Notes under the pieces: model-generated
What the model was told of the DNA's origin: nothing
The model's database searches: none
Seen by the model: only the letters and a program-made list of their open reading frames with translations
Made by a program: the position numbers and the translations under genes
Origin: Leuctra nigra
Lineage: Eukaryota; Arthropoda; Insecta; Plecoptera; Leuctridae
Assembly: GCA_934045905.1 (NCBI GenBank)
Contig: OW203764.1
Span: forward strand, 36,949,434 to 37,013,433
Direction of reading: 5' to 3'
Length of the DNA stretch: 64,000 nt
Part shown: positions 6,702 through 61,000 of the stretch, one piece after another
Layout: each line of letters opens with the position of its first letter
Numbering within the stretch: the first letter of the stretch is position 1

Positions 6702-6797
6702 AAATAAGAGTCAATCGTCTGTGTATAGTACCGATGCCTTCATTCCAACAAATAAGAGTCAATCGTCTGTGTATAGTACCGATGCCTTCATTCCAAC
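6702..6797 (+). repeat. 48-bp tandem duplication at the LINE A/LINE B junction
   Basis: Two identical 48-bp units (6702-6749 and 6750-6797) encode NKSQSSVYSTDAFIPT twice. Because 48 is a multiple of three, the frame is kept. It lies exactly where YADD-containing LINE A sequence gives way to LINE B. Confidence 0.9.
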
Positions 6798-30840: not shown

Positions 30841-31089
30841 CTAGACACTACTGTCAGAATCGACTCTCAGACTGTCTTCCAATTCCTTGACCATCTTCAT
30901 GCGATCGTCCGCGACCTCCTTCATCCGTCTGAAGACGGGCTGACGGCCGACGATCGTCTCCTGGAAGTCGGTGTTCTCCAGACGGTACAGCGAGCACGTC
31001 TCCAGCGCGAGGACAGACATGGGGCTCACGTGATCTTCAGAGAGAAGCGCAACCATGCCGAATATGTCGCCGTCCACCAGGTGGCAGAG
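30841..31089 (-). CDS. Channel exon 8: end of nucleotide-binding domain and C-terminus
   Basis: The acceptor CTCCACCAG precedes CTC TGC CAC; phase 0 joins exon 7. Encodes 82 residues and a TAG stop at 30841-30843. It begins LCHLVDGDIFGMVALLSE, the phosphate-binding cassette, then SVLALETCSLYRLEN (end of the beta roll) and a charged C-helix (FRRMKEVADDRMKMV). In HCN channels the FGE Glu and the Arg of RRTAS contact cAMP. Here the positions read FGM and VSPMS, so canonical cAMP binding is doubtful. Confidence 0.88.
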   Translation of the reverse strand, partial: LCHLVDGDIFGMVALLSEDHVSPMSVLALETCSLYRLENTDFQETIVGRQPVFRRMKEVADDRMKMVKELEDSLRVDSDSSV

Positions 31090-34000
31090 CTGGTGGAGTG
31101 CAACAGGGTTTAGATGGGGTCCAACAGGGCACAGTTTTATACATGATTTGTTAATACGAAATTTAAAAAAATGCTTGACACGTCGTTTAGAGGATTTCAA
31201 ATTCAGACATTCTATTCAGAGCTCAGTAGGCGAAAGTAAAGTTCATTATATACTATGGAAAACGCTATGTGTAACGCGTTAATGAGCGAGCCTTCGTACT
31301 ACATGCGATTTGACAGCGTTTGCAAGTCTCTGCTCTACAGGCCTTGTAACTGAAGAGTGTGATAGCAGTGATAACATAATTGTAATTCTTGGCATACACT
31401 TGGCATACATGTCCAAAATGGCAATAACAGATAGTCTGAAAATTGACAAAAATACCTAAAATGTTATTAGTGAAAAATTTCGAATTGATACGTCGAGCGG
31501 TGTGAGCTAGAGGCCATTTTCATGTATCAACCAATCACAGGATCTTGTTCAAAAAACGATCCAGTATTTGTTTAAATTTTCTGATCGATTGGAATTGAAC
31601 GGTTTGACCTGGGCACTGCAGCAAAAATTAACAAAAAAAAAACACACATAGAGACAAAGAGTATACCGTGGTCCGTGATGACGCTCGCTACGCTCGCACA
31701 ATGACGACAATATTAATTAGGTGCAGTCTAACGACTTGGTCGAGTGTTGCCACCGCCCCACTACATTCCACACACCACTATCTGAGAGAGCAATGAGTCC
31801 GGGTCATACCTCCACACCGTCTTTCAAGAGGACGGCGACGGACCCGTACTCGATGAAGTACATCATGTCGACGACCTCGCCCTCGCGCACGATGTAGTCG
31901 CCGTTGAGACAGATCTCCGGCGTGAGGGCCGACACGATGTTGCTGACTTGTTCGGAGGGCAAGCCGTCGAAGAGGCCGACGATCTGCACAAGACGGCGCC
32001 GAGTGTACATGCTCAAGTCCTTGCGCAGGGGCTCTGCGCACAGGAGATTTCAGTGCATTAAAGTGAATATTTCTGACGTTTTAGTAGATCACGTCGTTTA
32101 TTGGTCGTTCACATGAACACTGCCCTGTCAATGGCAAGTCTTTCTTTGAAATTGTATAAATTATGTGAAATACACACTTTTTAATAGTAGAAAATATTAG
32201 AAAACTTCAATCAAGTTGATTTATCTCTATCTACATGGTCATCTTTTACATATTTTTTGATTATTGATATTTACATGTGTAGGTATACAATTTTTCGCTA
32301 GACTACAGTAGTACACGGCCGCCATTACGCCTTGATATTCTAAACGTGAACGAACTTTATTATTAGAAAACTAGCTGACCCGCCCGGCGTTGCTCGTTTT
32401 TTTTGGGGGGGGGGGGGGGGGGGTGGGGGGAGGGGGAAGTTTGTGTAGGTTGTTCGCAGAGTTCTGAAGGGTAATTGTTAAAAATTGTTAAAAAATAAAC
32501 ATTAAAAACAGATATTTAGGCTTCTTTTTTTCTGCGTATTCTGCTGTCAACAGAATCGACTTAAAAGAAACCATTTGCCCACCGAGGTCCTGTTTAGTTT
32601 GACAGCAACTTGGCAACAAGGTAAACTGGTTTGTACCTGACATGGCCGACAGAATGGAGTGGTCTCGCGTGTAATGTTTCTCATAGCGGTGCTCGTAGAA
32701 CGTGATCAGTCTGTTCTGGATATTCATCGGCAGCTGTTTGTGGAACATGAACGCCTGCAGCTGGTTCATGATCTCAAAGTACTTCTGCTCCGAGTAGTGA
32801 GCTGACGTCACCATTTGTAGCAGCGTTGCTAGAAGTACATCGACATTTAAGTTGGTGAAAACGCGAGCGGTTTTGCTGCTTTTTGCAGGCACTTATTTGG
32901 AGACGATTGTAGACGAAATGGGACTGGGTTGACGATATAATTTGAAATGTTAATCATGATTAGATAAAAGGCAAACTTTGGGTTATCACTTGGTACATTT
33001 TAAATTATTTGCTTCGTTTATTATTTAGTATTAATAAGTTAATTTTCGTGAGAAAAACAGCTCTGTTCTTGTATTGGTGGGTGCCATATAAAATTTAATT
33101 TAAAACATGTGCCAAGTAATAACCCAAAGTTTGTCTATTATCTAATCATTATTAAATTATCATCATTATCATTATTAATCAATTTATCTAATGATTATTT
33201 AATCATTATTAAAATTTGAGATCAATTGGTTGACGGGTTTAATCACCAATCGTATCGGAAATTTCATAGTTTGGTTCGGTTTTGGTGAATAACGAAGCAC
33301 GAAGCAATAATAAAAAAGTGCTTCTAATATACAATCAGACTGATCATGTGAACATCCTATCAAGTTACACCCACTTATGAAACTATATTCCTCTTTCAAT
33401 GGGCTCGAACGGCCGAGCGCTTGTATCACCTTAATACTCCTTTCAGTATAAATGACTACCCGTGTTAGAACCAGTTAGAACATAGGAGTTACTAACAATA
33501 TTACGGTGGTAAAGAAGTATTACGTTCATGTAACTCAGGAGAGGCGCATTCAGAAAGTTGAGATACTGTTTTAATTGCGCGTCAGCGAATAAGTTCAATT
33601 CAATTCAGGCTCTACGTCATCGAGTCAATTGTGTTATCTCGTTGTAATCTCACCGAACAGCATCAAGTTGAACAGCATCCCGAAGATGTATGTGGTGATG
33701 GACATGATGAGCTCCTCTCTGGGATGCGGGACCAGCGTGTCGTAGCCGATCATGCAGACCTCCAGCACCGCCCGCACCAGACACAGACGATACCTCCTCC
33801 AGAGGGACGCGTCGCCCAGGTGGTACACGTTGATCCAAGAGTTCTTGTACTCCTCGGCGTAGTCCTTGTCCGTCTGGGGACAGGGCAACGAGGAGGCCGA
33901 TCAGAGGGTGAGGGCGAGGGACCGAATTCCACGGATTATAAATAATATATATTTTTTGTGGAATAATAAGCTAAGATATTTGTATGTAATTTTCCTTGGG

Positions 34001-37000
34001 CTTTCAATTAATTATAATCCCAGAAAAAAACACTCCGTGTAAAAAAGGCAGCCAAGTCTCTTTACTTTAAAAAAATTCAACACCGAAAAGGAGTGATATC
34101 AAAAAAGGAGCCAAGTCAATGACATTTCCAAATATTTAATCGTATTTTTGAAATAAAAGAATAAACACCGAGAAATACTTTACAAAAGGACTTGGCGCAT
34201 CGTTTTTTTAAAGACCTCATTCAATACTAAAAGTGGAAAGAAATTTAAAGTAGGTACATTTTCCTCTTTCTATTAGAGCCAGAAACTATGAATCAAGCTA
34301 CTTTTAGTAATGGCTATTTTATAGTTTTGTCAATGGCGATAGTAGAAAGATTTCATGCTGTAATAGATAAGTAATATAAGGGTGGAAGAATTAAATAACA
34401 ATTGGAAGTGGGCTCATACATATTCTTATAGCACTGTTAATATGGTGATATTAGAAGGGTATCTTTTCATAATTTGATCTTGACTGAAGGAAATCATGAA
34501 ACGTTGTCAAATAATTACGAACTGTCTTTGGAACACTATTATATATTTTTGAAGTGTCAAGTGTATAAAGTTAAAATTTTTAATAGAAATTCAATGTGAC
34601 TATGTACTTTGTGAAATGTTTTGTTATAAAATGTGGATTAATAGAAATGTATTTCATGATGAGAAGGTTTAACGCATGAGACTTAATTATGTTGACCACG
34701 AAACAATATTACGAAGATAACTAACTATTGTGTATTTATAGAAAACATAGGCAACAAGTTTTATCGCGTACGTACATATTCTAATAGATAATATTTTACA
34801 GTAGGTATATGTATAATATGTAATTGAAAGATGTTTCCCTATTATTCTAAAAATTCTAAATTACGGTTGTATATCAATGGCATATGCTTATGAATCAAAA
34901 AATGAATTTAAAAAACGATGCGCCAAGTCCTTTTGTAAAGTATTTCTCGGTGTTTATTCTTTTATTTCAAAAATACGATTAAATATTTGGAAATGTCATT
35001 GACTTGGCTCCTTTTTTGATATCACTCCTTTTCGGTGTTGAATTTTTTTAAAGTAAAGAGACTTGGCTGCCTTTTTTACACGGAGTGTTTTTTTCTGGGA
35101 TATCACTTCTTTTGTTAGTTTATTCATACAGCTTGTAGCACATGTCCGAGCAGGGACTAATTTCTTTAAAAAAATACGCCTCAACCGATTTGCTTACTAA
35201 GAAAAGTTGCGTTTGGTATAAGATGAAAATGATTATCCAAGAAGAATAGCTTAAGTTTCGTTATAATCGATCCAGCCGTTTTCGATATATGACGTCACTT
35301 CCGGTTTTGAAATAGCGGCCGAAAATAATGTCGTCTTGAATTCATAATTATAAGTCCTACATAATTGCACAATTTGGTTGCAATCGGTACAGACGATTTC
35401 GATATATGACGTCACTTCCGGTTTAACCAATGGCGGCCGAAAATAATGTCGTCTTTTTATCCATAATTATAAGTCCTACATATTTCCAAAATTTGGTTGC
35501 AATCGGTACAGACGTTTTCGATATATGACGTCCCTTCCGGTTTTAACAATGACGGCCGAAAATAATGTCGTCTTTAATTCATAATTTTTAGTCCTCCATA
35601 TTTCCAAAATTTGGTTGCAATCGGTACAGACGATTTCGACATATGACGTCACTTCCGGTTTTAACAATGGCGGCCGAAAATAATGTCGTCTTTAATTCAT
35701 AATTATAAGTCCTACACATTTCCAAAATTTGGTTGCTATCGGTACAGCCGTTTTTGATTTATGACGTTACTTCCGGTTTTAACAATGGCGGCCAAAAATA
35801 ATGTCGCCTTTAATCCATAATTATAATTCCTACATATTTCCAAAATTTGGTTGCAATCGGTACAGCCGTTTTCGATATATGACGTCACTTCCGGTTTTAA
35901 CAATGGCGGCCGAAAATAATGTCGTATTTCATTCATAATTATTAGTCCTCCATATTTCCAAAATTTGGTTGCAATCGGTACAGCCGTTTTCGATATATGA
36001 CGTCACTTCCGGTTTTAACAATGGCGGCCGAAAATAATGTCGTCTTCAATTCATAATTATTAGTCCTACACATTTCCAAAATTTGGTTGCAATCGGTACA
36101 GCTGTTTTCAATATATGACGTCACTTCCGGTTTTAAAAATGGCGGCCGAGAACACTGCAACCTTGAATTTATAATTATTTACAAAGTAGGTTTACTAAAT
36201 ATCTATTTAAAAGTATAAAGTGGTGAATTTTGTGTCAATTATCATATTTATGACGTCATTTCCGGTATAGGTAATAGGAAAACAATCTAGTTGATACTTT
36301 ATGAACGACCATCTGAATTCATAATCCCTATATTTCCGTAAAATCGGTCTTGCCGTATGTAATATATGACGTCACTACCGGTTTCATTTAGTGGTTCCTG
36401 CCGCCATTTCCGGTACCGTTAATTTGTTTATTCATTTTTCACAATTGAGTTTCAAAAAAAGTTGCAGAATGAATACGCAGGAGCTAGTTCAGTTGCAAAC
36501 GGTACAGGCGTTTTAGATATATTACGTCACTTCCGGTTTCAGGAATGGCGGCCGAGAACACTGCCTCCTTGAATTTATAATTTGTATTGTCTATGTTACA
36601 ATGTAAGTTACTTATGTATGTATTTTAAGTATAATTTGTTGAAATAAGTTAAATATTGCGTATTTATGACGTCACTTCCGGTTCAGAAAATAAGAAAATA
36701 ATAATTTTTTTATTGATACTTCATATAGATGACCGTCTAAATCGAATGGCGCTAATTTCGTTCTAATCGGTCCAGACGTTTTTGAGATATGACGTCACTT
36801 CCGGTTTAAAAATGGCGGCACAAAAAATCACAAGAGGCAAGGTATCATCAGACGCCAAAAGTGCATATGTGGTAAAAATTTCAGGTTGATCGGTTCAGCC
36901 GTTTAGGCTGTGGCGGTGATAGCAACGTTTCCTGATATCTGAATCATCATCATCAGATAGCTTTTAAAAGGGGTGTAATTTCACTGTTTTCACGGCCCTC

Positions 37001-40000
37001 TAGCACCCAAACGGCATAACGTATTGTTCCCAAATTTGGTATATGTTGTCAGGTGGGCCATAGCTCGAAATTAAGTTATTTCGCAACAATGTGAGATTTC
37101 CCAATTTTAAGATCCAGTAGGCCGAAAATGCCATGTTGTTGCTTACAGTAAAAGTGTTTCGTCTGCTCCTCAGTTTATTAGGCATTTACGGTATGTTGAG
37201 TGAGTGTGAGTGTATAGTACGACTTGGCTGGGTGGAGCGACCGCTCCACTAGATATTAATCTTTCTCCCGGTTCCAAAAGTTGGATCGGGGAGTGGCGAA
37301 GGCCACCATTTACTAGGGCCCGGACTCCTAAGCTAGCTGGCCAGGCTTGGCTCTCCCTCTTCGTTCTTCTCTACCAGTTTATTCCACTATTTCCTGTCTT
37401 ACCCCCACCTTTCTTCCTCCACTTCTTCCCACATCTCCAGTCTCTCTTGTACATCCTCTGCTACCAGCTCTCTCCACTTTTCCCTCGGTCTTCCCACTCT
37501 CCTTGTATCACTTCTCGCAGCTTCGGTATTCTCTCCCTCTGCATTCTCTTCATGTGGCCAAATCACCTTCTCCCCATTTTAAATGCCAACCTCTCTACCT
37601 TCAAGTCTCCTCTAATCTTTTCACTACAGATCTTGTTCATCTTAGTTACTCCTTTTATGCTTCGTAAAAACTTCATTTCTGCTCCTGCAACTGGCTCTCC
37701 TCCTTTCCTCCTCGCCCACGATACGGAACCGTAGGACCCGTAGGCAGGAACCGTAGGCAGGAAATAGCTTTTGAAAAGGAGTATCTTGCATTTCTGGGGG
37801 ACCTGCTCATTCCAAAGAAGTTTCCTGACTAACTGGAAAAATGTGTTAGCCTGTTGTACTCTTGATGTTATCTTCTCTCCCCAGATACTTCAGATGGCTG
37901 ACCGGCATGCATCCTACTCCTGACGAAATATACCAAGCACCCAACGGCTTAATGTCCCGTCGAATTACGGTGTAACATTTACAGCACGGGTCTCCACAAC
38001 CCGCGCCGTCGAGAGACTGATAACAGGTGAAGGGAGGTCTTCACACTAACCCCCAAACACCCCAGTCTCTCTGGCCCAACGGCAGCAACTAGCAGCCCAG
38101 AGTTGAACAGTCACCCATCCAACTTTTTATCCTCGGTGATCTGACGAGAACCGTGGTATCCAATACACCAGCCATTGGGTACCCAGCCACTAGTCATCTG
38201 AACAGTATGCAAGTAGCTTCGATGTCGTTTGAATGTTTTATTCTGCTAGAGTTGTAATTTTTTAATGTGATCACTTAATCCCTACGTAGCGAACAATAAG
38301 TTTTATTTTTTGTATTCATTTTGACTGTGTATTTTTTAGATGGTGGCATAATTTTCTTCTTTATTGTCCCCGCTATTTGTCTGCACTAACCAGATGTGGC
38401 CAGTTGCAGAGGACCGGGATAAAGTAGTGGAAGCAGCCGGCCCAGTGTATTAGGATGAGGTACACGACGCCCATGCGGATACCGCGCTTGGCACTCGGCT
38501 GCAAGTGCGCCATCTGAAGTCAAGACACCAGTGTATTAGGATGAGGTACACGACGCCCATGCGGATACCGCGCTTGGCACTCGGCTGCAAGTGCGCCATC
38601 TGAAGTCAAGACACCAGTGTATTAGGATGAGGTACACGACGCCCATGCGGATACCGCGCTTGGCACTCGGCTGCAAGTGCGCCATCTGAAGTCAAGACAC
38701 CAGTGTATTAGGATGAGGTACACGACGCCCATGCGGATACCGCGCTTGGCACTCGGCTGCAAGTGCGCCATCTGAAGTCAAGACACCAGTGTATTAGGAT
38801 GAGGTACACGACGCCCATGCGGATACCGCGCTTGGCACTCGGCTGCAAGTGCGCCATCTGAAGTCAAGACACCAGTGTATTAGGATGAGGTACACGACGC
38901 CCATGCGGATACCGCGCTTGGCACTCGGCTGCAAGTGCGCCATCTGAAGTCAAGACACCAGTGTATTAGGATGAGGTACACGACGCCCATGCGGATACCG
39001 CGCTTGGCACTCGGCTGCAAGTGCGCCATCTGAAGTCAAGACACCAGTGTATTAGGATGAGGTACACGACGCCCATGCGGATACCGCGCTTGGCACTAGG
39101 CTGCAAGTGCGCCATCTGAAGTCAAGACACCAGTGTATTAGGATGAGGTACACGACGCCCATGCGGATACCGCGCTTGGCACTCGGCTGCAAGTGCGCCG
39201 TCTGAAGTCAAGACACCAGTGTATTAGGATGAGGTACACGACGCCCATGCGGATACCGCGCTTGGCACTCGGCTGCAAGTGCGCCATCTGAAGTCAAGAC
39301 ACCAGTGTATTAGGATGAGGTACACGACGCCCATGCGGATACCGCGCTTGGCACTCGGCTGCAAGTGCGCCATCTGAAGTCAAGACACCAGTGTATTAGG
39401 ATGAGGTACACGACGCCCATGCGGATACCGCGCTTGGCACTCGGCTGCAAGTGCGCCGTCTGAAGTCAAGACACCAGTGTATTAGGATGAGGTACACGAC
39501 GCCCATGCGGATACCGCGCTTGGCACTCGGCTGCAAGTGCGCCATCTGAAGTCAAGACACCAGTGTATTAGGATGAGGTACACGACGCCCATGCGGATAC
39601 CGCGCTTGGCACTCGGCTGCAAGTGCGCCGTCTGAAGTCAAGACACCAGTGTATTAGGATGAGGTACACGACGCCCATGCGGATACCGCGCTTGGCACTC
39701 GGCTGCAAGTGCGCCGTCTGAAGTCAAGACACCAGTGTATTAGGATGAGGTACACGACGCCCATGCGGATACCGCGCTTGGCACTCGGCTGCAAGTGCGC
39801 CGTCTGAAGTCAAGACACCAGTGTATTAGGATGAGGTACACGACGCCCATGCGAATACCGCGCTTGGCACTCGGCTGCAAGTGCGCCATCTGAAGTCAAG
39901 ACACCAGTGTTTTAGGATGAGGTACACGACGCCCATGCGGATACCGCGCTTGGCACTCGGCTGCAAGTGCGCCATCTGAAGTCAAGACACCAGTGTATTA

Positions 40001-43000
40001 GGATGAGGTACACGACGCCCATGCGGATACCGCGCTTGGCACTCGGCTGCAAGTGCGCCATCTGAAGTCAAGACACCAGTGTATTAGGATGAGGTACACG
40101 ACGCCCATGCGGATACCGCGCTTGGCACTCGGCTGCAAGTGCGCCGTCTGAAGTCAAGACACCAGTGTATTAGGATGAGGTACACGACGCCCATGCGGAT
40201 ACCGCGCTTGGCACTCGGCTGCAAGTGCGCTTGGCACTCGGCTGCAAGTGCGCCATCTGAAGTCAAGACACCAGTGTATTAGGATGAGGTACACGACGCC
40301 CATGCGGATACCGCGCTTGGCACTCGGCTGCAAGTGCGCCATCTGAAGTCAAGACACCAGTGTATTAGGATGAGGTACACGACGCCCATGCGGATACCGC
40401 GCTTGGCACTCGGCTGCAAGTGCGCCATCTGAAGTCAAGACACCAGTGTATTAGGATGAGGTACACGACGCCCATGCGGATACCGCGCTTGGCACTCGGC
40501 TGCAAGTGCGCCATCTGAAGTCAAGACACCAGTGTATTAGGATGAGGTACACGACGCCCATGCGGATACCGCGCTTGGCACTCGGCTGCAAGTGCGCCAT
40601 CTGAAGTCAAGACACCAGTGTATTAGGATGAGGTACACGACGCCCATGCGGATACCGCGCTTGGCACTCGGCTGCAAGTGCGCCATCTGAAGTCAAGACA
40701 CCAGTGTATTAGGATGAGGTACACGACGCCCATGCGGATACCGCGCTTGGCACTCGGCTGCAAGTGCGCCATCTGAAGTCAAGACACCAGTGTATTAGGA
40801 TGAGGTACACGACGCCCATGCGGATACCGCGCTTGGCACTCGGCTGCAAGTGCGCCATCTGAAGTCAAGACACCAGTGTATTAGGATGAGGTACACGATG
40901 CCCATGCGGATACCGCGCTTGGCACTCGGCTGCAAGTGCGCCATCTGAAGTCAAGACACCAGTGTATTAGGATGAGGTACACGACGCCCATGCGGATACC
41001 GCGCTTGGCACTCGGCTGCAAGTGCGCCATCTGAAGTCAAGACACCAGTGTATTAGGATGAGGTACACGACGCCCATGCGGATACCGCGCTTGGCACTCG
41101 GCTGCAAGAGCGCCGTCTGAAGTCAAGACACCAGTGTATTAGGATGAGGTACACGACGCCGATGCGGATACCGCGCTTGGCACTCGGCTGCAAGTGCGCC
41201 ATCTGAAGTCAAGACACCAGTGTATTAGGATGAGGTACACGACGCCCATGCGGATACCGCGCTTGGCACTCGGCTGCAAGTGCGCCATCTGAAGTCAAGA
41301 CACCAGTGTATTAGGATGAGGTACACGACGCCCATGCGGATACCGCGCTTGGCACTCGGCTGCAAGTGCGCCATCTGAAGTCAAGACACCAGTGTATTAG
41401 GATGAGGTACACGACGTTCATGCGGATACCGCGCTTGGCACTCGGCTGCAAGTGCGCCATCTGAAGTCAAGACACCAGTGTATTAGGATGAGGTACACGA
41501 CGCCCATGCGGATACCGCGCTTGGCACTCGGCTGCAAGTGCGCCATCTGAAGTCAAGACACCAGTGTATTAGGATGAGGTACACGACGCCCATGCGGATA
41601 CCGCGCTTGGCACTCGGCTGCAAGTGCGCCATCTGAAGTCAAGACACCAGTGTATTAGGATGAGGTACACGACGCCCATGCGGATACCGCGCTTGGCACT
41701 CGGCTGCAAGTGCGCCGTCTGAAGTCAAGACACCAGTGTATTAGGATGAGGTACACGACGCCCATGCGGATACCGCGCTTGGCACTCGGCTGCAAGTGCG
41801 CCGTCTGAAGTCAAGACACCAGTGTATTAGGATGAGGTACACGACGCCCATGCGAATACCGCGCTTGGCACTCGGCTGCAAGTGCGCCATCTGAAGTCAA
41901 GACACCAGTGTTTTAGGATGAGGTACACGACGCCCATGCGGATACCGCGCTTGGCACTCGGCTGCAAGTGCGCCATCTGAAGTCAAGACACCAGTGTATT
42001 AGGATGAGGTACACGACGCCCATGCGGATACCGCGCTTGGCACTCGGCTGCAAGTGCGCCATCTGAAGTCAAGACACCAGTGTATTAGGATGAGGTACAC
42101 GACGCCCATGCGGATACCGCGCTTGGCACTCGGCTGCAAGTGCGCCGTCTGAAGTCAAGACACCAGTGTATTAGGATGAGGTACACGACGCCCATGCGGA
42201 TACCGCGCTTGGCACTCGGCTGCAAGTGCGCTTGGCACTCGGCTGCAAGTGCGCCATCTGAAGTCAAGACACCAGTGTATTAGGATGAGGTACACGACGC
42301 CCATGCGGATACCGCGCTTGGCACTCGGCTGCAAGTGCGCCATCTGAAGTCAAGACACCAGTGTATTAGGATGAGGTACACGACGCCCATGCGGATACCG
42401 CGCTTGGCACTCGGCTGCAAGTGCGCCATCTGAAGTCAAGACACCAGTGTATTAGGATGAGGTACACGACGCCCATGCGGATACCGCGCTTGGCACTCGG
42501 CTGCAAGTGCGCCATCTGAAGTCAAGACACCAGTGTATTAGGATGAGGTACACGACGCCCATGCGGATACCGCGCTTGGCACTCGGCTGCAAGTGCGCCA
42601 TCTGAAGTCAAGACACCAGTGTATTAGGATGAGGTACACGACGCCCATGCGGATACCGCGCTTGGCACTCGGCTGCAAGTGCGCCATCTGAAGTCAAGAC
42701 ACCAGTGTATTAGGATGAGGTACACGACGCCCATGCGGATACCGCGCTTGGCACTCGGCTGCAAGTGCGCCATCTGAAGTCAAGACACCAGTGTATTAGG
42801 ATGAGGTACACGACGCCCATGCGGATACCGCGCTTGGCACTCGGCTGCAAGTGCGCCATCTGAAGTCAAGACACCAGTGTATTAGGATGAGGTACACGAT
42901 GCCCATGCGGATACCGCGCTTGGCACTCGGCTGCAAGTGCGCCATCTGAAGTCAAGACACCAGTGTATTAGGATGAGGTACACGACGCCCATGCGGATAC

Positions 43001-46000
43001 CGCGCTTGGCACTCGGCTGCAAGTGCGCCATCTGAAGTCAAGACACCAGTGTATTAGGATGAGGTACACGACGCCCATGCGGATACCGCGCTTGGCACTC
43101 GGCTGCAAGAGCGCCGTCTGAAGTCAAGACACCAGTGTATTAGGATGAGGTACACGACGCCGATGCGGATACCGCGCTTGGCACTCGGCTGCAAGTGCGC
43201 CATCTGAAGTCAAGATACCAGTGTATTAGGATGAGGTACACGACGCCCATGCGGATACCGCGCTTGGCACTCGGCTGCAAGTGCGCCATCTGAAGTCAAG
43301 ACACCAGTGTATTAGGATGAGGTACACGACGCCCATGCGGATACCGCGCTTGGCACTCGGCTGCAAGTGCGCCATCTGAAGTCAAGACACCAGTGTATTA
43401 GGATGAGGTACACGACGCCCATGCGGATACCGCGCTTGGCACTCGGCTGCAAGTGCGCCATCTGAAGTCAAGACACCAGTGTATTAGGATGAGGTACACG
43501 ACGCCCATGCGGATACCGCGCTTGGCACTCGGCTGCAAGTGCGCCATCTGAAGTCAAGACACCAGTGTATTAGGATGAGGTACACGACGCCCATGCGGAT
43601 ACCGCGCTTGGCACTCGGCTGCAAGTGCGCCATCTGAAGTCAAGACACCAGTGTATTAGGATGAGGTACACGACGCCCATGCGGATACCGCGCTTGGCAC
43701 TCGGCTGCAAGTGCGCCATCTGAAGTCAAGACACCAGTGTATTAGGATGAGGTACACGACGCCCATGCGGATACCGCGCTTGGCACTCGGCTGCAAGTGC
43801 GCCATCTGAAGTCAAGACACCAGTGTATTAGGATGAGGTACACGACGCCCATGCGGATACCGCGCTTGGCACTCGGCTGCAAGTGCGCCGTCTGAAGTCA
43901 AGACACCAGTGTATTAGGATGAGGTACACGACGCCCATGCGGATACCGCGCTTGGCACTCGGCTGCAAGTGCGCCGTCTGAAGTCAAGACACCAGTGTAT
44001 TAGGATGAGGTACACGACGCCCATGCGGATACCGCGCTTGGCACTCGGCTGCAAGTGCGCCATCTGAAGTCAAGACACCAGTGTATTAGGATGAGGTACA
44101 CGACGCCGATGCGGATACCGCGCTTGGCACTCGGCTGCAAGTGCGCCGTCCGAAGTCAAGACACCAGTGTATTAGGATGAGGTACACGACGCCCATGCGG
44201 ATACCGCGCTTGGCACTCGGCTGCAAGTGCGCCATCTGAAGTCAAGACACCAGTGTATTAGGATGAGGTACACGACGCCCATGCGGATACCGCGCTTGGC
44301 ACTCGGCTGCAAGTGCGCCGTCTGAAGTCAAGACACCAGTGTATTAGGATGAGGTACACGACGCCCATGCGGATACCGCGCTTGGCACTCAGCTGCAAGT
44401 GCGCCGTCTGAAGTCAAGACACCAGTGTATTAGGATGAGGTACACGACGACCATGCGGATACCGCGCTTGGCACTCGGCTGCAAGTGCGCCGTCTGTAGT
44501 CAAGACACCAGTGTATTAGGATGAGGTACACGACGCCCATGCGGATACCGCGCTTGGCACTCGGCTGCAAGTGCGCCGTCTGAAGTCAAGACACCAGTGT
44601 ATTAGGATGAGGTACACGACGCCCATGCGGATACCGCGCTTGGCACTCGGCTGCAAGTGCGCCGTCTGAAGTCAAGACACCAGTGTATTAGGATGAGGTA
44701 CACGACGCCCATGCGGATACCGCGCTTGGCACTCGGCTGCAAGTGCGCCATCTGAAGTCAAGACACCAGTGTATTAGGATGAGGTACACGACGCCCATGC
44801 GGATACCGCGCTTGGCACTCGGCTGCAAGTGCGCCGTCTGAAGTCAAGACACCAGTGTATTAGGATGAGGTACACGACGCCCATGCGGATACCGCGCTTG
44901 GCACTCGGCTGCAAGTGCGCTTGGCACTCGGCTGCAAGTGCGCCATCTGAAGTCAAGACACCAGTGTATTAGGATGAGGTACACGACGCCCATGCGGATA
45001 CCGCGCTTGGCACTCGGCTGCAAGTGCGCCATCTGAAGTCAAGACACCAGTGTATTAGGATGAGGTACACGACGCCCATGCGGATACCGCGCTTGGCACT
45101 CGGCTGCAAGTGCGCCATCTGAAGTCAAGACACCAGTAAATTAGGATGAGGTACACGACGCCCATGCGGATACCGCGCTTGGCACTCGGCTGCAAGTGCG
45201 CCATCTGAAGTCAAGACACCAGTGTATTAGGATGAGGTACACGACGCCCATGCGGATACCGCGCTTGGCACTCGGCTGCAAGTGCGCCATCTGAAGTCAA
45301 GACACCAGTGTATTAGGATGAGGTACACGACGCCCATGCGGATACCGCGCTTGGCACTCGGCTGCAAGTGCGCCATCTGAAGTCAAGACACCAGTGTATT
45401 AGGATGAGGTACACGACGCCCATGCGGATACCGCGCTTGGCACTCGGCTGCAAGTGCGCCATCTGAAGTCAAGACACCAGTGTATTAGGATGAGGTACAC
45501 GACGCCCATGCGGATACCGCGCTTGGCACTCGGCTGCAAGTGCGCCATCTGAAGTCAAGACACCAGTGTATTAGGATTAGGTACACGACGCCCATGCGGA
45601 TACCGCGCTTGGCACTCGGCTGCAAGTGCGCCATCTGAAGTCAAGACACCAGTGTATTAGGATGAGGTACACGACGCCCATGCGGATACCGCGCTTGGCA
45701 CTCGGCTGCAAGTGCGCCATCTGAAGTCAAGACACCAGTGTATTAGGATGAGGTACACGACGCCCATGCGGATACCGCGCTTGGCACTCGGCTGCAAGTG
45801 CGCCGTCTGAAGTCAAGACACCAGTGTATTAGGATGAGGTACACGACGCCGATGCGGATACCGCGCTTGGCACTCGGCTGCAAGTGCGCCATCTGAAGTC
45901 AAGACACCAGTGTATTAGGATGAGGTACACGACGCCCATGCGGATACCGCGCTTGGCACTCGGCTGCAAGTGCGCCATCTGAAGTCAAGACACCAGTGTA

Positions 46001-49000
46001 TTAGGATGAGGTACACGACGCCCATGCGGATACCGCGCTTGGCACTCGGCTGCAAGTGCGCCATCTGAAGTCAAGACACCAGTGTATTAGGATGAGGTAC
46101 ACGACGCCCATGCGGATACCGCGCTTGGCACTCGGCTGCAAGTGCGCCATCTGAAGTCAAGACACCAGTGTATTAGGATGAGGTACACGACGCCCATGCG
46201 GATACCGCGCTTGGCACTCGGCTGCAAGTGCGCCATCTGAAGTCAAGACACCAGTGTATTAGGATGAGGTACACGACGCCCATGCGGATACCGCGCTTGG
46301 CACTCGGCTGCAAGTGCGCCATCTGAAGTCAAGACACCAGTGTATTAGGATGAGGTACACGACGCCCATGCGGATACCGCGCTTGGCACTCGGCTGCAAG
46401 TGCGCCATCTGAAGTCAAGACACCAGTGTATTAGGATGAGGTACACGACGCCCATGCGGATACCGCGCTTGGCACTCGGCTGCAAGTGCGCCATCTGAAG
46501 TCAAGACACCAGTGTATTAGGATGAGGTACACGACGCCCATGCGGATACCGCGCTTGGCACTCGGCTGCAAGTGCGCCGTCTGAAGTCAAGACACCAGTG
46601 TATTAGGATGAGGTACACGACGCCCATGCGGATACCGCGCTTGGCACTCGGCTGCAAGTGCGCCGTCTGAAGTCAAGACACCAGTGTATTAGGATGAGGT
46701 ACACGACGCCCATGCGGATACCGCGCTTGGCACTCGGCTGCAAGTGCGCCATCTGAAGTCAAGACACCAGTGTATTAGGATGAGGTACACGACGCCGATG
46801 CGGATACCGCGCTTGGCACTCGGCTGCAAGTGCGCCATCTGAAGTCAAGACACCAGTGTATTAGGATGAGGTACACGACGCCCATGCGGATACCGCGCTT
46901 GGCACTCGGCTGCAAGTGCGCCATCTGAAGTCAAGACACCAGTGTATTAGGATGAGGTACACGACGCCCATGCGGATACCGCGCTTGGCACTCGGCTGCA
47001 AGTGCGCCGTCTGAAGTCAAGACACCAGTGTATTAGGATGAGGTACACGACGCCCATGCGGATACCGCGCTTGGCACTCGGCTGCAAGGGCGCCATCTGA
47101 AGTCAAGACACCAGTGTATTAGGATGAGGTACACGACGCCCATGCGGATACCGCGCTTGGCACTCGGCTGCAAGTGCGCCGTCTGAAGTCAAGACACCAG
47201 TGTATTAGGATGAGGTACACGACGCCCATGCGGATACCGCGCTTGGCACTCGGCTGCAAGTGCGCCATCTGAAGTCAAGACACCAGTGTATTAGGATGAG
47301 GTACACGACGCCCATGCGGATACCGCGCTTGGCACTCGGCTGCAAGTGCGCCATCTGAAGTCAAGACACCAGTGTATTAGGATGAGGTACACGACGCCCA
47401 TGCGGATACCGCGCTTGGCACTCGGCTGCAAGTGCGCCGTCTGAAGTCAAGACACCAGTGTATTAGGATGAGGTACACGACGCCCATGCGGATACCGCGC
47501 TTGGCACTCGGCTGCAAGTGCGCCATCTGAAGTCAAGACACCAGTGTATTAGGATGAGGTACACGACGCCCATGCGGATACCGCGCTTGGCACTCGGCTG
47601 CAAGTGCGCCATCTGAAGTCAAGACACCAGTGTATTAGGATGAGGTACACGACGCCGATGCGGATACCGCGCTTGGCACTCGGCTGCAAGTGCGCCATCT
47701 GAAGTCAAGACACCAGTGTATTAGGATGAGGTACACGACGCCCATGCGGATACCGCGCTTGGCACTCGGCTGCAAGTGCGCCATCTGAAGTCAAGACACC
47801 AGTGTATTAGGATGAGGTACACGACGCCCATGCGGATACCGCGCTTGGCACTCGGCTGCAAGTGCGCCATCTGAAGTCAAGACACCAGTGTATTAGGATG
47901 AGGTACACGACGCCCATGCGGATACCGCGCTTGGCACTCGGCTGCAAGTGCGCCATCTGAAGTCAAGACACCAGTGTATTAGGATGAGGTACACGACGCC
48001 CATGCGGATACCGCGCTTGGCACTCGGCTGCAAGTGCGCCATCTGAAGTTAAGACACCAGTGTATTAGGATGAGGTACACGACGCCCATGCGGATACCGC
48101 GCTTGGCACTCGGCTGCAAGTGCGCCGTCTGAAGTCAAGACACCAGTGTATTAGGATGAGGTACACGACGCCCATGCGGATACCGCGCTTGGCACTCGGC
48201 TGCAAGTGCGCCATCTGAAGTCAAGACACCAGTGTATTAGGATGAGGTACACGACGCCCATGCGGATACCGCGCTTGGCACTCGGCTGCAAGTGCGCCAT
48301 CTGAAGTCAAGACACCAGTGTATTAGGATGAGGTACACGACGCCCATGCGGATACCGCGCTTGGCACTCGGCTGCAAGTGCGCCATCTGAAGTCAAGACA
48401 CCAGTGTATTAGGATGAGGTACACGACGCCGATGCGGATACCGCGCTTGGCACTCGGCTGCAAGTGCGCCATCTGAAGTCAAGACACCAGTGTATTAGGA
48501 TGAGGTACACGACGCCCATGCGGATACCGCGCTTGGCACTCGGCTGCAAGTGCGCCGTCTGAAGTCAAGACACCAGTGTATTAGGATGAGGTACACGACG
48601 CCCATGCGGATACCGCGCTTGGCACTCGGCTGCAAGTGCGCCTTCTGAAGTCAAGACACCAGTGTATTAGGATGAGGTACACGACGCCCATGCGGATACC
48701 GCGCTTGGCACTCGGCTGCAAGTGCGCCATCTGAAGTCAAGACACCAGTGTATTAGGATGAGGTACACGACGCCCATGCGGATACCGCGCTTGGCACTCG
48801 GCTGCAAGTGCGCCATCTGAAGTCAAGACACCAGTGTATTAGGATGAGGTACACGACGCCCATGCGGATACCGCGCTTGGCACTCGGCTGCAAGTGCGCC
48901 ATCTGAAGTCAAGACACCAGTGTATTAGGATGAGGTACACGACGCCCATGCGGATACCGCGCTTGGCACTCGGCTGCAAGTGCGCCGTCTGAAGTCAAGA

Positions 49001-52000
49001 CACCAGTGTATTAGGATGAGGTACACGACGCCCATGCGGATACCGCGCTTGGCACTCGGCTGCAAGTGCGCCATCTGAAGTCAAGACACCAGTGTATTAG
49101 GATGAGGTACACGACGCCCATGCGGATACCGCGCTTGGCACTCGGCTGCAAGTGCGCCATCTGAAGTCAAGACACCAGTGTATTAGGATGAGGTACACGA
49201 CGCGAATGCGGATACCGCGCTTGGCACTCGGCTGCAAGTGCGCCATCTGAAGTCAAGACACCAGTGTATTAGGATGAGGTACACGACGCCCATGCGGATA
49301 CCGCGCTTGGCACTCGGCTGCAAGTGCGCCATCTGAAGTCAAGACACCAGTGTATTAGGATGAGGTACACGACGCCCATGCGGATACCGCGCTTGGCACT
49401 CGGCTGCAAGTGCGCCATCTGAAGTCAAGACACCAGTGTATTAGGATGAGGTACACGACGCCCATGCGGATACCGCGCTTGGCACTCGGCTGCAAGTGCG
49501 CCATCTGAAGTCAAGACACCAGTGTATTAGGATGAGGTACACGACGCCCATGCGGATACCGCGCTTGGCACTCGGCTGCAAGTGCGCCATCTGAAGTCAA
49601 GACACCAGTGTATTAGGATGAGGTACACGACGCCCATGCGGATACCGCGCTTGGCACTCGGCTGCAAGTGCGCCATCTGAAGTCAAGACACCAGTGTATT
49701 AGGATGAGGTACACGACGCCGATGCGGATACCGCGCTTGGCACTCGGCTGCAAGTGCGCCGTCTGAAGTCAAGACACCAGTGTATTAGGATGAGGTACAC
49801 GACGCCCATGCGGATACCGCGCTTGGCACTCGGCTGCATGTGCGCCATCTGAAGTCAAGACACCTCATTAGCCTTTCAAACTCATCAGAATGAAAAGAGT
49901 CCTCATAGAAAAAATAGACTTGATCTGATTTTCGTTACATGTCTTTATTCCCTCCAAAATATCCCATGACATATGCAATTGATTTTTATGAATGATAATT
50001 TAACATTTCTTGGTGTGTTTGTCATTATTATTTGTGTTATAAATGTACATATTTACCGTCATGAAATTTCAGGTGACCTCGCTATTGGAATGTTAATAAT
50101 TTCATTTTATTCTATACGGATATTTAGTGATAAATAAATCAAAAGAACAGAAGACCGTAACCTGAATTAGTATGTGGCATTATTAAGTGGGCTGAGTAGT
50201 GAGCGTGGCCTTGAAGAGTTTTTTAATCGATTTTTATCAATCTAGTGGAGCGGTCGCTCCACGCCAGCCAAGTCGTACGGCGCGCACACTCTCACACAAA
50301 ATACCGTTCAAACCTGAAGGCTGGAGCAACCTCACTTTTACTGTAAGCATCAAAGTGGCCTTTTCGGCCTACTGGATCCTAAAAATGGGAAATCTCACAT
50401 TGTTGCGAAATATCTTAATTTCGAGCTATGGCCCACCCCACCACATATACCAAATTTGGGAACAATACGTTATGCCTTTTGCGAGCAGGAGGACCCTGAA
50501 AACCGTGAAATTGTACGGCTTTCAGATAATGATTACTAGGAAAACGCTCTGTGTAACGTGTTGATGAGCGAGCACGGACACGCGTAACACCTCGAACCGA
50601 AATTTTGTCTATCGAAAATATCATTAAAAGTCAATAATTCTTGAAATTCGTCAGACTTGTAGGTATAAAAATCTCAAAATATTCCTGTAGTATTAGGCCC
50701 AATAACCATGCAAAGGCTTAAGTTGATCGATTGAACCTTTATGTTATTAAAAACAAGAAAATATTATATACCAGTTAGTATACTAATTATTACAACCAAC
50801 TATTGGAAACCTGGTATTCAATTTAAAAGCCACACATTAAAGCAATATTTCGATGATTATTCTATCATCTTCATCAGTCAACTGACGACATTCGCCAGCT
50901 TTCCCCCCTTTCATCAAAAAACCGCTACACCATCTCACCTCTGTCAAAAACTAAAAGTACATTACGTCCTAATAACTAAAGGTAAATGAGTCAGGTACAC
51001 ATAATATCACAGATTAATTAATTACGAAGCAGTTAATTGATGTCAGGAGTCAACAAAGACCTCCATGACTCATCGAACATAAAATTACTCTGGCTAGTAA
51101 TTAGACGATATGTGTGGCTTTTAAATTGAATACCTGGAGGCCAAGTCTTGAAACTTACGCCTTCAGGACGCAAACGCTCTAGGACGTCATAAAGTCCCAT
51201 TTACTGTAAGAGTGATCGACATTGAAACATAAAGTCAAGCCACTTATTTGATTGTCATCCAGCAATCTATTGGAAACAATTTATTAATATTATAATTATT
51301 ATTACAGATGTTATTTAGTCATAAAACCTTATTCAAAATTAAGATAAACAGTTAACAGTAGATTTCAAGGTCGTCATTCTTACAGTAAATGGGACTTTAT
51401 GACGTCCGAGAGCGTTTGCGTCCTGAAAGCGTAAGTTTCAAGACTTGGCCTCCAGGTTTCCAATAGTTGGTTGTCAAGCGAGCGTAGCGAGCGTCTCGTC
51501 TCCACTTGAAACTTATGGCTCGAAACTCTGTTTTTGTGTGTATTTGTGCATTTGGCGTCTCCTGCCAAACGAAGTAATGGATCAGGCCAATTTTTTCACA
51601 AAACTTATATTACTATTCTCGTTATGGTCAAAATGATTTTCAGCAAGTTCGCTCCATTGGTTGCATCGGAAACTTGATGTGTAGTTATAGTTAGCTTGGC
51701 AATGGGGATGAAGGAAACTCTGTGTATATAACTCAGCCATTCCATGTTACGGGCGTGACCGATCTGACTGCTTTTGCCAACTTTACACCATGAAAACAAT
51801 TTTTGTCAATGCTACCAAGTACATCATGATTTTTTCTAAAATTATTATGGGGTCAAAGTAGTCAAAAAAAAAATTGAATGCATTTTAGAAGTGGCAACTT
51901 ACTTAATATTATGAAAAACACTGTGTTACGGGTGTGACGCGATTCAGACAAGGGTTTTCAGATTCTAAGTTAAAAGTGTCAAACTCCGTGAGTTTAGGCT

Positions 52001-55000: not shown

Positions 55001-58000
55001 AGGAACCCGGGAAAATTACTGCTAAAAGTGTGTGTACTTACACAATATTAGACCATAGATTAGACGATCTGTTGAACGGTCATATCAGTTTCATACGTTT
55101 GAAAGTTGCTCTAACTACCTTGGAACTATAAAGAGTCCAAGTAGCCGTGACCCCATAAAAAACACTCCGTGTAAAAATACCAGCCAAGTCTCTTCAATTA
55201 AAAAAAAATAGAAGAAATCTAAAAATTCAGCACTGAAAAGTAGTGATATCAAAAAATTGGCCAAGTCAAAACTTTTCAAAAAATACTTGGCGCATCGTGC
55301 ATAAAAATAGTATAGAAGTAGGCAGGAAATGAAATGTACCTACTCATCTACACATGTCCTAAAAAAAAAGTCCTAAAAAGTTTTGACTTGGCCAATTTTT
55401 TGATATCACTACTTATCAGTGCTGAATTTTTAGATTTCTTCTATTTTTTTTAATTAAAGAGACTTGGCTGGTATTTTTACACGGAGTGTTTTTTATGGGG
55501 ATATCACTCCTTTTTTCAGTTTATTATTACAACTTTTAACATATTGTGGCACCCAAGATTATAATTCTTTTAAAAAATAAGATTTTGTGATTTGGTTGCT
55601 AAGAAAAGTTGTGCTTGTTACTGTGTTTATGCTATAAATAATATGTTACAAAGTATAGCGAAATTTTCGTTCCAATCGGTTCAGCCGTTTTCGAGTTACG
55701 GCATCACTTCCGGTTTTCAAAATGGCGGTTGACATCACTGCCACCTAAAATTTGTATATATAAATGTTATGTGACATTATAAGCCTTCTGAATATGTAGT
55801 TATTGATATAAGAGATGATTTTAGTCAGATTTGTCATTTTTATGACGTCATTTCCGGTTTAGGTTATAGAACATTTCTTCTTTACTATTGGTATTTCTTA
55901 TAGATGACCTTCTAGATCGAATGGCGCTAATTTCGTTCTAATCGGTCCAGCCGTTTTTGATATATGACGTCACTTCCGGTTTAAAAATGGCGGCACAAAA
56001 AATTTATAGGAACAAAGGTATCATCCGACGCCAAAAGTGCACATGTGGTAAAAGTTTCATATCGATCGGTTCAGCCGTTTAGGCTGTGGCGGTGATAGCA
56101 ACGTTTCCTGATATCTGAATCATCAGATATAGCTTTTAAAAGGGGTGTAATTTCACTGTTTTCACGGCCCTCTAGCTCGCAAACGGCAACACGTATTGTT
56201 CCCAAATTTGGTATATGTTGTCAGGTGGGGCCATAGCTCGAAATTAAGTTATTTCGCAACAATGTGAGATTTCCCAATTTTGAGATCCAGTAGGCCGAAA
56301 ATGCCATGTTATTGCTTACAGTAAAAGTGTTTGGTCTGCTCCTCAGTTTATTAGACATTTACGGTATGTTGAGTGACTGTGGTGTACGGTACGACTTGGC
56401 TGGGTGGAGCGACCGCTCCACTAGATCAACATTTTCGAGTAATTTGACAGCAAACACGCAAAATGTCCGTAAAATGTCAATAACTTTTGGATTTAAGTCT
56501 GATAAGTCTGAAAATTGTCAAAAATACAGATAATGTTGGTCCCAATGACCATGCAAAGTTTTAAGTTGATCGGTCATACGGTTCTAGTTTAAATTTAAAA
56601 AATCATATGAAAGATTGTTTTTAAATTTTAACCAATAGGAGGATTTGGCTGAAACTTTGTAAGATTGGGTACAATGTTGGTCGTAATGACTTGTCAAAAT
56701 TTCAAATTGATCGGAACAACCAATCGAAAGATTTTTTTTTTTAAATTTGAACCAATCACATGAGCCCATTCAAAAACGATCCCAGGGACCGCATAGATTA
56801 CGTTAGTATGTGCAAAATTTCAGATCGATTGGTTGTGCCGTTTGACCTGGGCTGTGAACACACAAAAAAAAAAAAAAACACACAGAGAAAGTGCCATAAG
56901 AGTACCGTGGTGACGCTCGCTACGCTCGCTCAATAATGATTCATCTTCCAATAAATTCCGCGGTCTCCGCCACAGGCTTAATGGCTGGGTCGATTGACCC
57001 GAAATTTTCACCACATATACAGCTCGTCTGCCTGATGATACCTTGCACTCATAATTTTTTTGTGCCGCTATTTTGAAACCGGAAGTGACGTCATATCTCA
57101 AAAACGGCTTTACCGATCGGAACGAAATTTGCGCCAATCGATTCAGACCGTCCTGTATATGAAATATCAATTGTCAAAAAAGAAATATATTATTACCAAA
57201 TCCGGAAATAACGTCATAAAAATGCAAAATCAGACTTTAATCACCTCTTACTGCAATAACTACATATTCAGAAGGCTTATACTGATACAAAACATTTATG
57301 TAAATAAATTATTGGTGGCAGTGATTTCAGCCGCCATTTTCTAAACCGGAAGTGATGCCATATCTTGAAAACGGCTGGACCGTTTGGAACGAAGCTTTCG
57401 CTATTCTTTATGGAATATCATTTTATGCATTATTTAGTACCGAACGTAACTTAACTTTGTGTCCAAATCGGAAATGGCTTATTTTATTAAAGGAATTAGT
57501 CATTGTTGCTCCGATTTGTGTTACAAGTGTGAGAATAATCTAAAAAAAGAAGTGATATCCCCATAAAAAAACACTCCGTGTAAAAATACCAGCCAAGTCT
57601 CTTCAACTATAATATAAAAAAATAAAATAAATCTAAAAAATTGAGCACTGAAAAGTAGTGATATCAAAAAATGGGCCAAGTCAAAACATGATTTTAAAAA
57701 CCGAAATATACTTGGTGCATCGTTTTTTTAGGGCATTTAGGTATATTATTTATATTTAGGTACATTTGACTTATGGCATATACCTACGTCTATATTATTT
57801 ATACACGATGCGCCAAGTATATTTCGGTTTTTAAAATCATGTTTTGACTCGGCCCATTTTTTGATATCACTACTTTTCAGTGCTGAATTTTTTAGATTTT
57901 TTTTTTTTTTATAGTTGAAGAGACTTGGCTGGTGTTTTTACACGGAGTGTTTTTTATGGGGATACCTTTTTCCAATGTAATTGTTAACAAAATAGGGCTT

Positions 58001-61000
58001 TGTACGAGTATTCAGAACAGTTCAATGAAAATAATGTCATAGTTTGGAATTAGTTTTATTTTGTCCGACAGATATTTAGTGCCATAATTTTACTAATTTT
58101 CGGGCACTAAACGTCTGTAGGACAAAGTAAATCTTATAAACCATTACAAGCTATGGAATTATTTTCATTAAAACTGTTCTGAATACTCGTGCAAAGCCTT
58201 ATTTTGTTAACAATTACATTGGTAAAAGATATTGATAAAACTCGAAAAAAACTCTTCAAAGTCAAACTCACTACCCAGCCGTCTTCAGATTGAACAGTCG
58301 TGACACACGTATGAAGCCAAGTGTTGAGGGGTGAAGTTCTCCTACCTCTGCCAACTGGCTGATCATGCTGAGCAACGTGATGACGCGGATGATCTTCATG
58401 CTGGACATCGCAGCGAAGACGGCGGACACCCAGGGAGGCTGCTTGGCGAGATTCTCAGAGCCGCTCGTGAGGGTCACGATCAACGAGCCGACGGACTCCA
58501 ACGGCAGCGACGAGATCATGTCCACGAAGAAGTAGCTGCGCAGGTAGCGGCTGCGCAACAGAATGCGCTTTAGGACGGCGCACGGATTCACTCGCTTTTG
58601 AAGTCTGATTGGCTCCAACGCCAATTTAGTGCAATATTTAGTTAATCCGGAATCCGAACTTTAAGGGTCAGTTTTTCAATACCTACACTACATTTTAAAC
58701 AGAGGATGAGGAATATGTGACATGGCAATAACCAATCACATTGCTTCATTGACCGCTTAAATTTAATGCTCTGCTGGTTTTAGCAGAGTATTGAAAAACT
58801 GGTTCTAAATCTATATTTAAGTTAACGTGTCGGCTTGGTCAATGTTTTAGTATCATCACTTTTTATGTAGTGATGCGTGTCATCACTATACGTTTCAGTG
58901 ATGAATTTGGATATATACATCCTATCATTGATCCTATAGAAGCAAAACTCGCCTATTACATTTTTTTATAATTTTCAGAAAAGGTCAAAAACGAGAATAG
59001 GTTTTGAGATGGAGCTATTTGGATATATTTTAAAACATCTGTGCCGTAAAAGTTTCGTTTGTGCCTAACCCCTTCAACCCTCAAAGCTCCAACCCCCAAA
59101 TTGTAAATAAAATTTTGTTGAAGGACTTGGCACAAACCAGCACCAACGATTGCCGTTTTCGGAACTCCAAGATTCCAAAACGGGGGTTCTGAGGTCACGC
59201 ACCCCAAGACGAGTTTTAAAAAAATCGCTCTACCCATAGGCGACTTATGCTTCCAAAAACGTGTACCTGGATTAGGCAAGTTTTGATTAACTGAAGTAGG
59301 AAAATACAAGTTTTGGTTTTAAACATCTATAAAGATGCCTGTAGCATGAAGTTTTGACGAGTTTTGCATGGGTGTTTTTCCTCATTACATGCGGATTTAG
59401 ACAGAGAACAATAATCAGGAGATAACTATATTTTTTTTTTGAAAAGTGGAGTATGCGAGTTTTGCTTCAATAGGACAAACTTTTTTCTTAATTTAGGAGA
59501 TGAGACTGCGCTCTTTTTACATTTAGTGCTTTTTATGGGTTATTATTATATCTGGCAAAAACTGCGTTACTTTATGGTTTATAGCTATAATTTTCACAAA
59601 ATGTTTGATCAATAAATCAATAAGTCAATAAATGAGAAGCACAAAATCTCTGAAATAATCATTGCTAGCAATGATTACTTCAGAGATTTTCTACAGAGGG
59701 GGGGGGGGGGGGGATCAAACTAGTTGACAACAAAATTATGAAACTTTACTTATTTTACTGCAAAACGTTGCATTCCCCGTCATTCTCCTCAAATGTTATG
59801 ATGTTTAAAGGCCTCTACTCTGGGAGTTACCCGCTGATCATTCCAAGCTCCAGCACAATGGTCTTGCTCATGTCGTCTTGGTATCCGGTGAAGAAGTTGA
59901 AGATGACGTCGATCATGCACAGACAGTCGAGGGTGGACAACACGTAGAGGTCGTTGAGACGCAGAGTGTCGTCTTCGTAGCTGAACGCCATGCTCCACGG
60001 GATCAGGATCATAGAGATCGAGATCACCACCACCATGAACATCTGCCAGACAAATCTGTGGAGAGCGAAGAAGAGGACATTGGCACGTAGAACACGTAGA
60101 GGTCGTTGAGACGCAGCGTGTCGTCCTCGTAGCTGAACGCCATGCTCCACGGGATCAGGATCAGAGAGATCGAGATCACCACCACCATGAACATCTGCCA
60201 CACAAATCTGTGGAGAGCGAAGAAGAGGACATTGGCACGTAGAACACGTAGAGGTCGTTGAGACGCAGCGTGTCGTCCTCGTAGCTGAACGCCATGCTCC
60301 ACGGGATCAGGATCAGAGAGATCGAGATCACCACCACCATGAACATCTGCCACACAAATCTGTGGAATTTCAGATCGATCGGTTCAGCCGTTTAGGCTGT
60401 GGCCCTGTCAACAGTGTTTCCTGATATCATCTTAGGAAGATAGGTTTTAAAAGGGGTGTAATTTCAATTTCACTGTTTTCACGGCCCTCTTGCTCGCAAA
60501 AGGCATAACCTGTTGTTCCCAAATTTGGTATATGGGGTGGGGTGGGCCATTGAACGAAATTAAGATATTTCGCAACAATATGAGATTTCCCAGTTTTGTG
60601 ATCTAGTAGGCCGAAAATGCCATGTTGTTGCTAACAGTAAAAGTGTTTGGTCTGCTCCTTAGTCCGTTCCTTAGTCCTTAGTCCGTTACTGCCTAATAGG
60701 CAGTAACGGTATGTTGAGTGAGTGCGAGTGTATTGTACGACTTGGCTGGGTGGAGCGACCGCTCCACTAGATCTTTATGGGGTTAGAGGGTTTAGTTATA
60801 GGGGTGAGAATGTGTTGTAATTCATACCAAGATTGATGAAATTACATACAACTTCAAAAAAACTATTTTCCATCACTGGTATGCATGATTGAAGTTTCAC
60901 TGTTACCCCTTCCAATGCCCCTTCATTGGATAACACAGGGAGAGATGAAAATCATTGAGCATTGGACTTCAATTGCTCCTAGAACCACAAGAGATATGAC

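Follow-up and report, generated by a model that had tools for sequence, protein, structure and literature searches.

A giant splice-acceptor minisatellite in an HCN-like channel gene of Leuctra nigra, with related arrays at exon boundaries of other genes

Minisatellites whose units span an exon–intron boundary have been described in amphioxus as 'mirages', in Adh3, the globin genes BflGb6 and BflGb9, troponin C and PGBD5. The passages available from these reports describe tandem repeats at an acceptor or a donor, with the authentic exon kept, concerted evolution within clusters, length instability and undisturbed regular splicing; two haplotypes of BflGb6 have 6 and 3 units, BflGb9 has one duplicate and PGBD5 a triplication (PMC3087553, PMC3902484). 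Two human cases are related. In the CBS 844ins68 polymorphism, splicing strongly prefers the more distal of two sites and thereby removes the upstream copy; the excerpt terms the two donor sites, and a title in its reference list has 3′ splice site (PMC2630376). In segmental duplications, according to a further excerpt, internal tandem repeats at exon–intron boundaries alter gene structure (PMC2812944). Here we describe an array of 132 near-identical splice acceptors in front of exon 4 of an HCN-like channel gene of the insect Leuctra nigra (Plecoptera), within a 64,000-nucleotide stretch of DNA (assembly GCA_934045905.1, contig OW203764.1, positions 36,949,434 to 37,013,433 of the forward strand; hereafter the window). 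Like the amphioxus repeats as reported, its unit spans a boundary together with the splice site, an intact full exon stands beside the array and the copies evolve in concert. Unlike them, with at most 6 units in BflGb6, it has 132 units in 11.4 kb, and arrays of this type occur in several channel and receptor-like genes. It is an extreme form of the known mirage kind, and its scale and recurrence are new. Length instability and regular splicing are what was reported in amphioxus, whereas the window array is known from the sequence of one assembly. The human cases, as excerpted, also differ from it: CBS 844ins68 is a polymorphism with one extra 68-bp copy, the splicing of which was measured, and the segmental-duplication repeats have on average four units of 30 bp and may form novel introns (PMC2812944). 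Our literature searches, which mostly covered journals other than subscription ones, returned no boundary minisatellite from an insect among the papers listed.

The host gene lies on the minus strand and runs from 62125 to 30841, with eight exons that join into a single open frame of 561 codons plus a stop codon:

61878..62125, minus strand, exon 1, with the predicted start codon
59831..60055, minus strand, exon 2, S1–S2
58346..58550, minus strand, exon 3, S3–S4; acceptor refined by alignment to relatives
38391..38513, minus strand, exon 4, 123 nt, phase 0-0, start of S5; complete copy, closing the array on its gene-downstream side
33654..33873, minus strand, exon 5, pore region
32637..32828, minus strand, exon 6
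31810..32033, minus strand, exon 7, first part of the cyclic-nucleotide-binding domain
30841..31089, minus strand, exon 8, including the stop codon

The joined protein contains both Ion_trans and cNMP_binding domains, and its best match among solved structures, queried with hand-joined pieces of exons 1–4, was to chains of HCN1 (E = 2.2e-22). A protein search returned eight relatives, four of which had a named organism, all insects (Diamesa, Ctenocephalides, Agrilus and Anopheles), and two of these four are called HCN channel 1-like; the five best relatives are 26–32% identical to the window protein in the alignment. An acceptor initially chosen for exon 3, which added 18 amino acids, was dropped after this alignment. 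The selectivity filter of HCN channels is GYG. The pore of the window channel (33654-33873) reads IGYD, and GYG is present in only one of the five aligned relatives (P0004) and missing from the other four; we therefore claim only that the gene is HCN-like, and the subfamily may not be K+-selective.

The array occupies the gene-downstream end of intron 3 and includes these features:

38442..49864, minus strand, 86-bp splice-acceptor minisatellite, 131 extra units plus exon 4's own copy
38514..38527, minus strand, exon 4's own acceptor, TGTCTTGACTTCAG
44852..44960, minus strand, 109-bp unit with a 23-bp internal duplication
42163..42271, minus strand, 109-bp unit
40162..40270, minus strand, 109-bp unit
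44150..44151, minus strand, the lone mutated acceptor AG (GG), in unit 67
39631..41214, minus strand, 1584-bp exact match to 41632-43215, a remnant of the duplication of a 2001-bp block within the array

A preliminary description of this DNA had proposed about 132 acceptor copies before a channel exon that has its own splice acceptor, and we counted 132 copies of TGTCTTGACTTCAG when up to two mismatches were allowed. The last copy in the row is exon 4's own, hence 131 are extra. The 86-bp unit with 14 intron bases was also described correctly, but its exon part is longer than stated, at 72 rather than 68 bases: each unit joins the final 14 bases of intron 3 to the opening 72 of exon 4. The placement of the acceptor boundary is backed by a paralogous exon on contig C9, which likewise starts with ATGGCGCACTTGCAGCC directly after an AG; this exon is 86% identical in DNA to exon 4 of the window gene, and exon 4 is in frame with it and with the relatives. 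The array is not a dispersed satellite DNA. Across the whole 536-Mb assembly (144 contigs), the exact 14-mer occurs 134 times (1 forward and 133 reverse), compared with 8 occurrences of a reversed control pattern, and 128 of the 134 sit in the window array, which marks it as a single-locus array.

The units are highly homogeneous. The 131 spacings between copies comprise 128 of 86 bp and 3 of 109 bp, the longer units being the product of an internal 23-bp duplication. The consensus, which equals the exon-4 sequence, is matched exactly by 78 of the 132 units, and the 129 units of 86 bp differ from one another by 1.0% on average. The acceptor AG is kept in 131 of 132 units and the exact 14-mer in 128 of 132. 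The exon part shows 15 distinct nonsynonymous and 4 distinct synonymous substitutions, where 168 and 48, respectively, would be possible, and thus gives no sign of coding constraint. Consistent with the block duplication, variant sharing between units at a shift of 23 reached 6, against a maximum of 5 over shifts in 2000 shuffles (the commonest variant was left out of this test). The 2001-bp block repeat could also be a mis-join, but it is very unlikely that the array is an assembly artefact or an over-expanded repeat: 24 distinct variants (66 occurrences in all) are spread along it together with the three 109-bp units, the copies of the block differ in single bases and similar arrays are found elsewhere in the genome.

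We then compared the outcomes of acceptor choice in the refined gene model. Exon 4's own acceptor gives the whole protein of 561 residues, whereas each of the 131 others leads to a stop after 254–288 residues. The preliminary description had reached the same view from one extra unit, which it read as ASCTSS followed by a stop; its expectation that upstream acceptors shift the frame and that a whole protein requires the exon-proximal site extends to all 131. Skipping of exon 4 keeps the frame and would give 520 residues.

We think it probable that the array is a giant mirage, that is, a near-neutral, boundary-spanning minisatellite whose extra copies are removed by splicing while the exon-proximal acceptor is used. 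The seed would have been a tandem duplication that by chance took in the boundary between intron 3 and exon 4. Because each extra copy comes with its own 3′ splice site, it could be removed as intron, so the protein would be unchanged and the array would be free to grow and homogenise almost neutrally, through block duplications and unequal exchange. The acceptor used for productive mRNA is most likely the exon-proximal one, which would be chosen because it pairs with the exon-4 donor across the exon.

A motif resembling a branch site accompanies the acceptors:

38535..38539, minus strand, CTAAT in the exon-derived part of unit 131, some 22 nt ahead of exon 4; putative branch site
49867..49871, minus strand, CTAAT in intron sequence past the array; the most upstream acceptor ends about 19 nt after it; putative branch site

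In 130 of 132 units, a CTAAT is retained some 22 nt ahead of the following AG. We considered whether its re-creation from codons before the acceptor is a special feature of this array; it is unremarkable, because 26 of 104 possible exon-4 breakpoints would leave CTAAT in range. The retention of both AG and CTAAT would also suit a different role for the array, as a splicing rheostat in which the 131 decoys compete and a share of transcripts that depends on copy number stops early or skips exon 4. Array length would then set channel dose or make a shorter isoform, and the early stop at every decoy, the in-frame skipping of exon 4 and the splice sites of exon 4, which look modest by eye, all fit such a role. 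We regard this as unlikely, because conservation of the motifs is expected from recent homogenisation anyway, the C9 paralog manages without an array at exon 4, and amphioxus mirages are reported, in the passages available, to leave splicing undisturbed.

A second, shorter array lies in the same gene:

59939..60366, minus strand, 152 bp × 2.8, acceptor and 5′ part of exon 2

Splicing to either of its two upstream acceptors would bring a stop after 143 residues. The distal copy lacks its pyrimidine-rich tract, and just beyond it stands a repeat-element sequence (60380-60700) with copies at 36891-37174 and 56067-56347. A genome search with the window protein identified a close paralog on contig C9; contigs C6 and C10 hold further relatives. 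Among the five HCN-like genes, three (the window gene on C3 and those on C9 and C10) together contain eight boundary arrays, two of them in the window. The C9 paralog has no array at exon 2 or exon 4, so the window array at exon 4 arose, or was lost on C9, after the duplication. The six arrays outside the window are as follows:

C9 exon 3, donor array, 142 bp × 11.8
C9 exon 8, acceptor array, 75 bp × 20.5 (piece L033, 1165-2701)
C10 exon 3, acceptor array, 182 × 14
C10 exon 5, acceptor array, 139 × 12.9
C10 exon 7, donor array, 102 bp × 5 (piece L036, 4960-5469)
C10 exon 8, acceptor array, 149 × 3

Exon 8 of the C10 gene was identified as a tblastn match, and its exons 3, 5 and 7 were recognised by eye in the translations. 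In two of these arrays, at C9 exon 8 (75 bp, 251 amino acids) and C10 exon 7 (102 bp, 229 amino acids), the unit length is a multiple of 3 and a frame stays open, which raises the question of whether extra units enter the protein in the window gene too. This is extremely improbable, as the reading frame of the window array contradicts a coding internal repeat: 86 leaves a remainder of 2 on division by 3, and the longest open stretch is 64 amino acids.

Boundary arrays also occur in other genes, whose channel and receptor names we presume from domain matches and resemblance. A genome search with Ion_trans reported 155 matches, and among the matches listed about fifty stand at 137-bp spacing on contig C4. 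The fetched ends of this C4 array show a donor array, with the full exon first, in which the unit comprises the 3′-terminal 132 bases of a Ca-channel-like exon followed by GTAGG. We also fetched ten Ion_trans exons (ranks 1, 2, 3, 5, 7, 9, 10, 13, 15 and 16 of the 155 matches) with about 400 bp on either side, one of which, Na-channel-like, carries an 88-bp two-copy acceptor array. A search with 7tm_1 gave 150 matches, and two pairs that looked suspicious by eye were both confirmed as acceptor arrays:

7tm_1 array 1, acceptor, 150 bp × at least 3.7 (the piece ends inside the array)
7tm_1 array 2, acceptor, 165 bp × 3.0

The 23 matches of a genome search with ABC_tran included none that was repeated. 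In total, we read 12 boundary arrays, 9 at acceptors and 3 at donors, with units of 75–182 bp: 8 in HCN-like genes, 1 in a Ca-channel-like gene, 1 in a Na-channel-like gene and 2 in receptor-like (7tm_1) genes. The splice boundaries of all 12 are placed by sequence and homology. Units that are multiples of 3 make up 4 of the 12, the chance fraction, so the frame is not under selection. These counts are lower bounds, because the domain searches score the best candidates only and need a long exon part in the unit, and thus miss short exon parts and lesser candidates.

To assess placement, we considered arrays with a period of at least 50 in the pieces of the HCN-like genes, on the assumption that arrays fall uniformly and that each gene has 14 boundaries (some exons were unseen). 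Eight of the ten arrays span a splice boundary, compared with 1.26 expected (P = 1.4e-6), and when the window exon-4 array was left out, seven of nine still did so (P = 1.5e-5). For the genomic background, we sampled 20 evenly spaced 10-kb pieces from contigs C1–C3, in which 16 merged arrays cover 14,842 of 200,000 bases (7.4%); in the window, 40.9% lies in arrays. The GC (guanine plus cytosine) content of the sampled arrays is 0.478, compared with 0.378 outside them, and that of the exons of the window gene is 0.56. The genome is therefore rich in minisatellites, and its arrays are GC-rich. The edges of the 16 sampled arrays are crossed by 52 open frames. The simplest account of survivors on splice boundaries is GC-rich seeding with purging of exon-internal copies. 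Minisatellites would start often in this genome, preferentially in GC-rich DNA such as exons; because exon-internal copies would be purged and copies with a splice site would persist, the survivors would lie on splice boundaries. The eight boundary arrays, at acceptors and donors alike, might also reflect mutation targeted to boundaries beyond GC-rich seeding, through a GC step, R-loops, fork stalling or co-transcriptional damage. We consider this rather unlikely, given that seeding and purging predict the same pattern and that no common motif was seen by eye among eight joints. A reading that joins the two, in which boundaries are a genome-wide, boundary-linked hot spot of tandem amplification and the largest mirages are copy-number-variable competitors that set the amount of productive channel mRNA, seems to us quite unlikely.

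Several points weigh against a near-neutral mirage with exon-proximal splicing. The placement test was post hoc and covered one gene family, and for the set of seven in nine its P value rises to 0.0015, 0.020 and 0.11 when boundary-spanning arrays are taken to be two, three and four times as likely as under uniform placement; given the fourfold value, a strong seed bias alone could explain the boundary placement. In the pieces fetched, the two C6 genes have no array on a boundary, and nine of the ten fetched Ion_trans exons have no repeat with a period of 20 or more within about 400 bp. The Ion_trans, 7tm_1 and ABC_tran searches between them brought out a single long array and two that are short. 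Long arrays thus look rarer outside HCN-like genes, and if arrays are indeed rarer elsewhere, HCN-like genes may be specially prone to them or specially tolerant of them. The arrays at C9 exon 8 and C10 exon 7 could be partly coding and possibly translated as repeats. Finally, in the available text of a study of competing 3′ sites, the upstream site is preferred overall, and exon definition significantly reduces this preference (PMC9225289). Exon-proximal use is therefore likely but not assured. The conclusion of the same source states that the sites closest across the exon are favoured under exon definition, and in large introns pairing across the exon supports exon-proximal choice in general (PMC9225289).

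The locus offers a natural experiment on splice-site choice, with one donor facing 132 near-identical acceptors. Other arrays of this genome, at acceptors or donors, range from 2 to about 50 copies, and this spread would allow tests of exon-proximity rules, for which two sites are the usual material. Boundary minisatellites, of which amphioxus and human genes gave the only published cases that we came across, recur in an insect genome and lengthen its introns, and so bear on intron growth and on mirage-based models of intron gain. Gene-prediction tools may misread such exons.

Two further ideas about the window array were tried and dropped. The preliminary description had noted that the joint of the array shares a GG, which we also see, and had suggested that microhomology drove its start. 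Only two bases are shared, and the numbers counted by eye are inconsistent between joints: 2 at exon 4 of the window gene, about 3 at C9 exon 3 and 0 at the Ca-channel array. The folding of two units gave no sign of RNA structure that might mask the decoys, as it did not surpass that of shuffled sequences (z = +1.6).

Other repeats stand near the channel gene. An array of 118-bp units lies in intron 4 (35265-36149, 7.5 copies), and 118-bp units also form an array of 4.8 copies in one of the sampled pieces (L016). About 660 bp downstream of the channel stop codon is an array of 88 units of 83 bp (22871-30179), the unit of which has no match elsewhere in the window. A further array, of 85 units of 72 bp (15145-21271), has long open frames on both strands and directly adjoins a frame with a DUF5641 match (21351-22457), which we take to resemble a retrotransposon integrase; a Ribosomal_L14 match on the 72-bp repeat was taken as chance. 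A search with a reverse-transcriptase frame of the window returned 35 relatives, all at no more than 40% identity. At 4822-8412 is a reverse-transcriptase frame of 1196 amino acids, in which two RVT_1 stretches were matched and which contains an exact 48-bp tandem duplication (6702-6798).

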